From: Clostridia bacterium
GTDB lineage: Bacteria > Bacillota > Clostridia > Christensenellales > Borkfalkiaceae
Reading direction: 5' to 3'
DNA: 64,000 nucleotides
Assembly (NCBI GenBank): GCA_029059705.1
Contig: JAIDVM010000015.1
Coordinates: forward strand, 62,001-126,000
Part shown: positions 35,484 through 62,234 of the stretch, piece by piece
Position numbering within the stretch: the first letter of the stretch is position 1
Layout: every line of letters starts with the position of its first letter
Made by a program: the position numbers and the translations under genes
Notes under the pieces: model-generated
Told to the model about the DNA's origin: nothing
The model's input: only the letters and a program-made list of their open reading frames with translations
The model's database searches: none

Positions 35484-35565
35484 TTGTCATTCTGGCGTAG
35501 TATGCTTTGTCGTTCCGCCTTGTCATTCTGAGGCTTGCCGAAGAATCTTTTTGCGCAAAAATAAC
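35484..35565 (+). repeat. R1 dispersed repeats (two units)
   Basis: A degraded unit begins at 35484 (TGTCATTCTGGCG). A full unit at 35521 reads TGTCATTCTGAGGCTTGCCG then AAGAATC with the TTTTTGCGCAAAAA palindrome at its 3' end. Confidence 0.8.
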
Positions 35566-39703: not shown

Positions 39704-39725
39704 CCGAAACGTCATAAATCAAAAC

Positions 39726-39900
39726 GGCATTAGCGCAACACTAAAAGTGACAGTCGCAAGGGTATTAACCCGTGCGCCCGACGCGGGGCAAGGCAGCCCG
39801 CACCTCGGCGGAGGCGCCCTTTTGCCGCAACTTCAACGGAATTTCCCTTAAAAATCCCTCCGTCCGCGGTTACTTTTGCCCGTCCGCTCCTCTGAATGCT
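39726..39900 (-). promoter_or_regulatory. Lysine riboswitch (L box)
   Basis: Read on the minus strand: closing stem GCATT/AATGC (39895-39899 with 39727-39731), AGAGGAGCG (39885-39893), an AAAAGTA turn, AAAGGGCGCC followed by CGCCGAGG, the hairpin GGGTTAATACCC (39760-39771), and ACTGTCA (39748-39754). These blocks, in this order, match the lysine aptamer as known from Bacillus lysC and Thermotoga asd. Position ahead of asd-dapA-dapB agrees. Lysine binding would favour the terminator at 39674-39703. Confidence 0.85.
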
Positions 39901-39905
39901 CTTAA

Positions 39906-54757: not shown

Positions 54758-54794
54758 GGGTTAGCGTAATCGCTCCCGCAATTTCACCCCCCCT

Positions 54795-54865
54795 TGTCAT
54801 TCTGAGGCTTGCCGAAGAATCTTTTTGCGCATTGCAAAGCAATTTCTTGCGCAAAAATCACACTA
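54795..54865 (+). repeat. R1 dispersed repeat with extended nested hairpin
   Basis: TGTCATTCTGAGGCTTGCCG then AAGAATC, followed by TTTTTGCGCA, a TTGC-AAA-GCAA hairpin, and TTGCGCAAAAA. Longer form of the TTTTTGCGCAAAAA tail seen at 35550. Confidence 0.8.
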
Positions 54866-57255: not shown

Positions 57256-57272
57256 ATGCTCCCGCACCACCT

Positions 57273-57337
57273 TGTCATTCTGAGCGTAGCCGAAGAATCT
57301 TTTTGCGCGTTGCAAGGCAATTTTTGCGCAAAAATTC
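57273..57337 (+). repeat. R1 dispersed repeat with extended nested hairpin
   Basis: TGTCATTCTGAGCGTAGCCG then AAGAATC, with the TTTTTGCGC, TTGC/GCAA, TTGCGCAAAAA tail as at 54795 but with different loop bases. Confidence 0.8.
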
Positions 57338-57362: not shown

Positions 57363-57391
57363 TTGACAAAGCAAGAAAATTATTATATAAT
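57363..57391 (+). promoter_or_regulatory. Exact-consensus sigma-A promoter of the noncoding region
   Basis: TTGACA (57363-57368), a 17-base spacer and TATAAT (57386-57391). The only promoter in the window found with both boxes perfect. Confidence 0.85.
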
Positions 57392-57397
57392 TTAGCA

Positions 57398-57900
57398 AAT
57401 CATACCAAACGGGAGGAGTATTTTATATAAGATATTGCGCCGAAGGTAAATAACCATTTTCATGCTTTCGGTAACGTACAACTTAATAAAATTGTGAACA
57501 TAATTTAAAAGCTTGGTGCAAGTCTCTCTAAAATTCTTGTTCCGCAAAAACAATACGTTTATGAAATTATTTTGTTAAAAACTGTATTAAACAGCTTTTT
57601 AACTCCCCACGTTTATTCCAACCCGATAACGAGCTTAAAGAAAAGCGTGTCAGTCGTTTAAACGACGTGATATCCGTCTTAAAGAAAATTGTAATTGGTT
57701 AGGAAAAACGTTCATGAGTAAGTCGAAAAACCCTTAAAGGCAAAAACGAATTATCCGAATAATTTATTTTCCGCTTATTCTTAAACATAAAAATAATTCG
57801 TCATGGCGAAATTGTATTTTCGGTTATGAAGATTATTTAATCAGACGGCGCGGCACCGTGCGGCGCTCGGGTTCAAGCTTTTAAATTAGTAACCGTTCAC
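57398..57900 (+). ncRNA. Putative large structured noncoding RNA or very long leader
   Basis: About 500 bases with no open frame of note, more A/T-rich than its surroundings. Visible stems: CCGAA/TTCGG (57440-57444 with 57467-57471) enclosing GGT/ACC; GTTAAAAA-CTGT against ACAG-TTTTTAAC (57574-57603); the palindrome GTCGTTTAAACGAC (57653-57666); a long-range ACGAATTAT/ATAATTCGT pair (57746-57754 with 57793-57801); GATTATTTAATC (57831-57842); and a GC-rich block at 57848-57866. It lacks tmRNA, RNase P, SRP, T-box and common riboswitch marks. It could be a large ornate RNA (ROOL, OLE or GOLLD type) or the 5' leader of the NYN-LOTUS gene. No terminator is seen before that gene. Confidence 0.45.
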
Positions 57901-57938
57901 TCCTTTCGTTTTGTTGTGATTGATATGAGGTAAAAATC

Positions 57939-58706
57939 ATGAACAAAATTCACTCAAACGAAACGGTAATCGCCCTTTTAATCGACGGCGACAACGTGCA
58001 CAGCCGCTATATCGACGTAATCGAAAAAGAGCTTGCCATCACCGGCAATACGTCCTATAAGCGCCTTTACTACACGTCTAAAAACGGTATGCCCGGCGGC
58101 TGGGACGAGATGTGCAACGCGCACGCCCTCACCGTAAGGCAAATGCTCCCCTATGCAAAGAGCAACGGAAGCGTTAAAAACGTTGCCGACGCCGCGCTCA
58201 TTATCGATGCCATGGACATTTTGTACAGCGGCAACGTCAACTGCGTTTGCATAGTCGCAAGCGACAGCGACTACACCACCATCGTCAAAAGGCTCAGGGA
58301 ATCAAACATCAGCGTAATAGGCATGGGCGCAAAGCACACCCCCGCGGCGTTCGTAAAAGCCTGCACCGAGTTCAAGTGTTTAGAAGATTTATTGTCAAAA
58401 TACAACGCAGGCGAAGCTGTCGAACAGCTTTCGGTAGACGGAGTTTCGGCTGAAACCGAAGAGGAAGAAACCACCGTAACCCCTAAAAGCGAAATCGAAA
58501 ACTTCGTCGTAAACCTTCTCGAAGACGCCGGCGAAAAAATGGACTGCGGCGAAATCAAAAAGAGAATTTGCAAAATGTGGCCGGGTTTCAACGTAAAAAT
58601 TTACGGAGTAAACAAAACCCACAAGCTCTTCGACATGATGAAAAGCCTTCGGGTAATTCACGAAAAGGGCGGCAACATCAACATCGATTTGAAAAACCGC
58701 GACTAA
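57939..58706 (+). CDS. NYN-domain ribonuclease with C-terminal LOTUS/OST-HTH domain
   Basis: 255 residues. Residues 8-150 form a NYN (PIN-like) nuclease fold with acidic sites in ALLIDGDNV, ADAALIIDAMD and VASDSDYTTIV. A Glu/Thr-rich linker (residues 155-183) leads to a LOTUS/OST-HTH fold (ENFVVNLLEDAGEKMDCGEIKKRI to the end), a module that binds RNA. GAGGT precedes the ATG. It is probably an RNA-processing or decay enzyme; its placement after a 500-nt noncoding stretch suggests that RNA as target or leader, which is inference. Confidence 0.85.
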   Translation: MNKIHSNETVIALLIDGDNVHSRYIDVIEKELAITGNTSYKRLYYTSKNGMPGGWDEMCNAHALTVRQMLPYAKSNGSVKNVADAALIIDAMDILYSGNVNCVCIVASDSDYTTIVKRLRESNISVIGMGAKHTPAAFVKACTEFKCLEDLLSKYNAGEAVEQLSVDGVSAETEEEETTVTPKSEIENFVVNLLEDAGEKMDCGEIKKRICKMWPGFNVKIYGVNKTHKLFDMMKSLRVIHEKGGNINIDLKNRD

Positions 58707-58772
58707 AAACACGGCAAAACAAATCTCACCTAAAACAACAGGGTTAAAAATTCGGATAATTTAAAATCGCAG

Positions 58773-58807
58773 GGCGCGGCTAAAAGCCGCGCCTTGTTTC
58801 GTTTTTT
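58773..58807 (+). terminator. Terminator of the NYN-LOTUS gene
   Basis: GGCGCGGC, TAAAA loop, GCCGCGCC, then TTGTTTCGTTTTTT. Confidence 0.8.
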
Positions 58808-62095: not shown

Positions 62096-62234
62096 CTGTC
62101 ATTCCGCCCGCCGCCCCTTGTCATTCTGAGCGGAGTGAGCGTATGCCCTTGTCATTCTGAGCGTAGTCGAAGAATCTCGCGCGCAGCGCGGACAAGGCAT
62201 TGGTACGCCGAAGAATCTTTTCGTGCAAAAATCA
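62096..62234 (+). repeat. R1 repeat cluster in the 300-bp gap after ileS
   Basis: At least three units: TGTCATTCCGCCC at 62097, TGTCATTCTGAGCGGAGTG near 62119, TGTCATTCTGAGCGTAGTCG then AAGAATC near 62150, and a further CGAAGAATCTTTTCGTGC end near 62208. No gene in this gap. Confidence 0.75.

Follow-up and report, generated by a model that had tools for sequence, protein, structure and literature searches.

A structured noncoding RNA and, directly behind it on the same strand, a gene for an NYN-LOTUS ribonuclease were found in a 64,000-nucleotide stretch of a Clostridia bacterium contig (hereafter, the window), and both the architecture of the RNA and its link to the NYN gene recur at another locus in a second species. 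The sequences suggest that the enzyme is controlled by the RNA in front of it, or that the two work together. In the reading that we put forward, with confidence that falls somewhat short of even, this is a one-gene transcription unit composed of a strong promoter, a 541-nt folded leader, the NYN-LOTUS ribonuclease gene, a short 3'UTR, and a terminator, in which the nuclease regulates its own mRNA through this cis-acting leader, as RNase E does.

The promoter (57363 to 57391, + strand, as are all of the features of the unit) is the sole exact match to TTGACA-17-TATAAT on either strand of the 64 kb, and no such match was present in shuffled sequences, in agreement with an earlier note on this DNA, which had singled it out as the only perfect promoter of this kind in the window. 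With a start predicted 7 nt 3' of the -10 element, the leader spans 57398 to 57938 (541 nt; 34% GC versus 49% in the window). It contains no + strand open reading frame of at least 50 aa, which bears out the earlier observation of about 500 bases without an open frame. The gene for the ribonuclease (255 aa), identified as an open reading frame and by domain searches, occupies 57939 to 58706, and a terminator-like hairpin follows at 58769 to 58797. In both the window and the second species (genome G464), coding-strand terminator-like sites are absent from the leader and there is one 3' of the NYN gene; thus, a single mRNA is expected. The unit is flanked by tsaD and ileS in the window. A repeat, TTGTCATTCTGAGC-TAGCCGAAGAATCT, has four + strand copies in the window (35520 to 35548, 54794 to 54822, 57272 to 57300, and 62149 to 62177), one of them about 60 nt 5' of the promoter of the NYN unit. 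A lysine riboswitch (RF00168, 60.9 bits) lies at 39723 to 39903 on the - strand.

The leader folds with a predicted free energy of -137.4 kcal/mol, compared with -107.4 ± 5.8 kcal/mol for dinucleotide shuffles (z = -5.2), and none of 100 shuffles equaled it, so the description of this stretch as a structured RNA stands. In the predicted fold, helix P1 opens at the predicted +1 (5' strand, 57398 to 57419, which includes an SD-like GGGAGGAG without a start codon) and closes the whole leader just 5' of the NYN ribosome site (3' strand, 57899 to 57921, overlapping a 24-nt element at 57897 to 57920). Inside P1 are P2 (57420 to 57431 with 57482 to 57492, the latter strand within the conserved island UACAACUUAAUAA at 57477 to 57489), the hairpin P3 (57436 to 57478), and the long-range helix P4 (57501 to 57514 with 57875 to 57888), and a P1/P2/P4 junction is predicted in the self-closed leader. 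The distance from the end of P1 to the start codon is 17 nt in the window and 12 nt in G464, with the ribosome site immediately after P1. Where the earlier note had described one long-range pair, the leader has two, P1 and P4, in addition to complementarity with the 3'UTR. The leader contains weak two-copy repeats only, with no tandem array 3' of the -10 element. A leader peptide was considered and rejected, as the two leaders have no peptide in common and, by eye, no ATG past the 5' SD-like site. In a search of the window with Rfam 15, the leader had no match at gathering thresholds and no credible one at E ≤ 10 (OLE, ROOL, GOLLD, raiA, tmRNA, RNase P, T-box, and riboswitches), in line with the earlier failure to match it to known RNAs, and in the same search of sequence L109 nothing came near the gathering score.

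A search of 93 genus genomes for close orthologs of the NYN protein turned up a single one besides that of the window, in G464 (65% identity). The G464 unit is flanked by a gene for a YpeB-like protein and one for a ParB protein (ypeB/parB) rather than by tsaD and ileS, and consists of a TTGACA-17-TAAAAT promoter (11/12), a noncoding leader of ∼420 nt, the NYN gene, and its own terminator, with a further terminator 5' of the promoter. The two layouts indicate isolated one-gene units at different sites. The leaders are nearly unalignable overall, and ordinary DNA alignment yields islands only; the islands UACAACUUAAUAA, AAUUAUCCGAAU, and UCACUCCUUUCG are identical between the two leaders and keep the same order. 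The 24-nt pattern from the leader's 3' end, with up to three mismatches allowed, was detected in 2 of the 93 genomes, exactly the window species and G464.

Independent folding of the two leaders gave P1, P2, P3, and the long-range P4 in each, with P4 at a nearly equal distance from +1, with P1 at leader positions 1 to 22/502 to 524 in the window and 1 to 25/386 to 408 in G464, and with posteriors for these helices mostly between 0.8 and 1.0 in both. P1, P2, and P4 are present in both free minimum-free-energy folds, all three were found together in 0/400 shuffles of each leader, and P1 with P4 was found in 2/400, numbers that serve as a guide only because the windows for the shuffle test were picked once the folds were known. 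Manual comparison of the two sequences, with structures predicted from those same sequences, gave ∼19 shared pairs in P1 with two two-sided changes, about four one-sided changes, and no broken pair; there was one two-sided change in P2, there were two at the base of P3, and P4 was wholly re-sequenced. A second species thus has the RNA and NYN side by side again, with the fold retained and with two-sided changes, which indicates that the pair is real. Of the three findings that the earlier note had named as counting against it, two were looked for, a match to a known RNA and a failure of conservation, and neither was made.

The leader is also complementary to the 3'UTR. Leader element a (AACCCU, 57729 to 57734) is complementary to 58740 to 58745, and element b (AAUUAUCCGAAU, 57749 to 57760) is complementary to 58750 to 58761, so that a' (AGGGUU) and b' (AUUCGGAUAAUU) are the corresponding elements of the 3'UTR, within 58740 to 58761. 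When the leader of either species is compared with its coding sequence plus 3'UTR, the longest perfect complement is this same conserved element pair. Helix b is 12 nt in the window (AAUUAUCCGAAU/AUUCGGAUAAUU) and 11 nt in G464 (UUAUCCGAAUU/AAUUCGGAUAA), lengths attained by 2/300 and 0/300 shuffled pre-terminator 3'UTRs. The adjoining helix a differs by a two-sided change, from AACCCU/AGGGUU in the window to AGCCCU/AGGGCU in G464. The order of the elements (a, b...a', b') means that helices a and b cross; they may form a pseudoknot, alternate, or pair between molecules, and with this crossing order and the short linkers both may not form in one molecule. In G464, AAATTCGGATAA has further copies, which are within open reading frames, and we claim no regulon.

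The earlier note had described the enzyme as an NYN nuclease fused to a LOTUS domain. The NYN domain is certain (PF01936, E = 1.6e-22). The assignment of OST-HTH/LOTUS at the C terminus is weaker, with the window protein scoring 20.5 bits against a cutoff of 23.8 (E = 4e-4), yet the domain is recognized at E ≤ 0.1 in 23 of the 25 family members that were aligned. The AlphaFold model (mean pLDDT, 85) has a confident, separate C-terminal domain, and the solved structures nearest to the model are 2qip and the MARF1 NYN domain. D16, D84, D109, and D111, which we take to be the catalytic acidic residues, are invariant in all 25 proteins. The two proteins that are linked to the RNA group together as a 100/100 clade with a long stem (1.66 changes per site), and in them a YGD motif has become YYT and 5 to 6 aa have been inserted. 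These changes are consistent with, and no proof of, the RNA and the enzyme having changed together.

NYN relatives were detected in 95 of 396 genomes of the order (E ≤ 1e-20). In 398 genomes of the family, E = 1e-37 was passed by G464 and G549 (a 42% relative) only, and in a sample of 366 genomes of the class none except the window's own passed E = 1e-48. The RNA motifs were absent from the NYN relatives whose upstream regions were examined; when 44 other NYN upstream regions were scanned for the islands, two had one weak match each and the others had zero. As most of the NYN-LOTUS genes seen are without such a leader, control through the leader would not be general for the family. In G549, the gene for the 42% relative (L128, 1435 to 2286) is leaderless and overlaps the end of the gene before it. 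The NYN protein matched no defense or toxin family, and no described RNA target of bacterial NYN-LOTUS proteins was found in a literature search.

Other candidate matches were rejected. A 29-nt blastn match in G084 was, by eye, inside a coding sequence and was attributed to chance, and the matches of GCGGCGCTCGGGTTCAAGC across the genome collection were scattered without regard to clade. The leader 3' element, which reads as an ordinary ribosome site on the opposite strand, had matches in viral contigs, none of them with the other islands; weak matches to the G464 leader in the genus also came without the other islands and were mostly in open reading frames or next to ordinary ribosome sites. 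Searches of phages and plasmids gave no DNA match, and TAL-effector matches were dismissed as compositional noise. In relatives within the genus for which both ends were located, tsaD is near ileS and NYN is absent, at times with other inserts. In one member of the genus, the gap contains a small HTH-like gene along with another small open reading frame (L107, 876 to 1428, reverse complement), so the tsaD-ileS site accepts different inserts. In L087, L090, L094, and L102, from genus relatives, a T-box-like leader was seen by eye before ileS (GAGAGYUUUCGGUUGGUGUAAG ... UUUUGGUGGUUUAUAAGC), which Rfam does not score at gathering thresholds; in the window, where the NYN unit occupies this position, no such leader was seen.

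In the reading that we favor, the target of the nuclease would be its own leader. P1 would hide the 5' end and border the NYN ribosome-binding site, and with the 5' end occluded and the ribosome site adjoined in this way the folded mRNA would be long-lived and its translation restrained. NYN-LOTUS would bind and cut the leader, or the duplex of leader and 3'UTR, and cutting would adjust the level of its own mRNA, as RNase E does through its long leader. The earlier note had offered two readings, an RNA with its dedicated ribonuclease or a long leader that controls the enzyme. This interpretation is partly supported, and the lack of a terminator between the RNA and NYN, the end of P1 12 to 17 nt from the start codon, and the 3'UTR matches favor the leader. 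These features, together with the lack of a repeat array and of a defense or toxin family match, make it somewhat unlikely that the RNA is a dedicated partner of the enzyme. In that reading, a stable RNA of its own, processed out of the common transcript, would hold, inhibit, or guide NYN-LOTUS, much as in a type III toxin-antitoxin pair or a ribonucleoprotein; a free RNA would need neither a P1 that ends at the NYN ribosome site nor elements matching the 3'UTR. Such a partnership would nonetheless agree with the finding of the RNA and NYN only together in the genomes searched, at two different loci, with their patchy occurrence (2/93 genus genomes), with the size, closed ends, and very fast evolution of the RNA, and with the strong changes in the linked proteins noted above. 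Unlikely, too, is a new RNA-nuclease pair in the form of a mobile unit whose large self-closed RNA and NYN-LOTUS changed together; there the RNA, dedicated to binding the enzyme, would hold, guide, or sense, either as part of an mRNA whose ends are both clamped by pairing of leader and 3'UTR or after release from it.

The P1 strands leave room for ribosome sensing. The SD-like 5' strand resembles real ribosome sites of the genus, the 3' strand, UCA-CUCCUUUC, is the genus 16S tail minus one base, and Firmicute 5' stabilizers rely on occlusion of the 5' end or on an SD that has no start codon (PMC3997798). However, pairing with a purine-rich SD is enough to make a strand look like the 16S tail, and the leader matched no known riboswitch or thermosensor family; we consider it quite unlikely that the leader sets NYN synthesis by sensing a signal other than NYN, such as free ribosomes, temperature, or a ligand. 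Chance folds and complementarities in an AT-rich intergenic stretch, with the species sharing a promoter-proximal relic only, would fit a comparison of two poorly alignable sequences made entirely in silico, with shuffle-test windows selected after the folds were known. This explanation appears improbable in view of the z scores (-5.2 and -3.4), the same architecture from independent folding (0/400 shuffles), the exact islands in the same order, the two-sided changes, and the movement of the unit as a whole to another locus. A conserved RNA physically tied to NYN-LOTUS is a candidate substrate and makes the target of the nuclease directly testable. If the nuclease is indeed controlled through its own leader, long-leader control would reach past RNase E to another nuclease, and a case of conserved leader-3'UTR pairing in bacterial mRNA would be added.

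Large folded noncoding RNAs such as OLE, ROOL, GOLLD, and raiA are known, and the leader is like them in these respects. In contrast to them, it has no Rfam match even at E ≤ 10 and was seen with NYN only. In type III toxin-antitoxin systems (ToxIN and CptIN), a promoter, an RNA, and an endoribonuclease gene follow one another and the distribution is patchy (PMC8860590). The order and the patchy occurrence are shared by the NYN unit, but it has no repeat array and no terminator that separates the RNA from the nuclease gene, and its protein is an NYN domain rather than a ToxN, CptN, or TenpN toxin. RNase E exerts feedback on its own mRNA through the rne 5'UTR, which is 361 nt in E. coli and 458 to 622 nt in cyanobacteria (PMC10989929). 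Judged by sequence, a very long structured 5'UTR likewise precedes the nuclease's own gene here; the differences are an enzyme of the NYN plus LOTUS type, predicted closure of the leader over its full length starting at +1, conserved leader-3'UTR complementarity, and an autoregulation that is as yet only proposed. In icaR of S. aureus, the mRNA carries in its 3'UTR an element that complements its 5'UTR, a 7-nt motif that covers the SD and creates an RNase III site (PMC3868564). Conserved complementary elements in the 5'UTR and 3'UTR of one mRNA are present here as well, with pairing predicted, but the matches of 11 to 12 nt plus 6 to 9 nt are to the interior of the folded leader rather than to the SD, and the gene encodes a nuclease. 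With the 5' mRNA stabilizers of Firmicutes (STAB-SD; reviewed in PMC3997798), the leader shares a 5' end that is predicted to be occluded and, close to that end, an SD-like sequence that lacks a start codon, whereas its SD-like strand is predicted to be paired with the 3' end of a domain of ∼520 nt.
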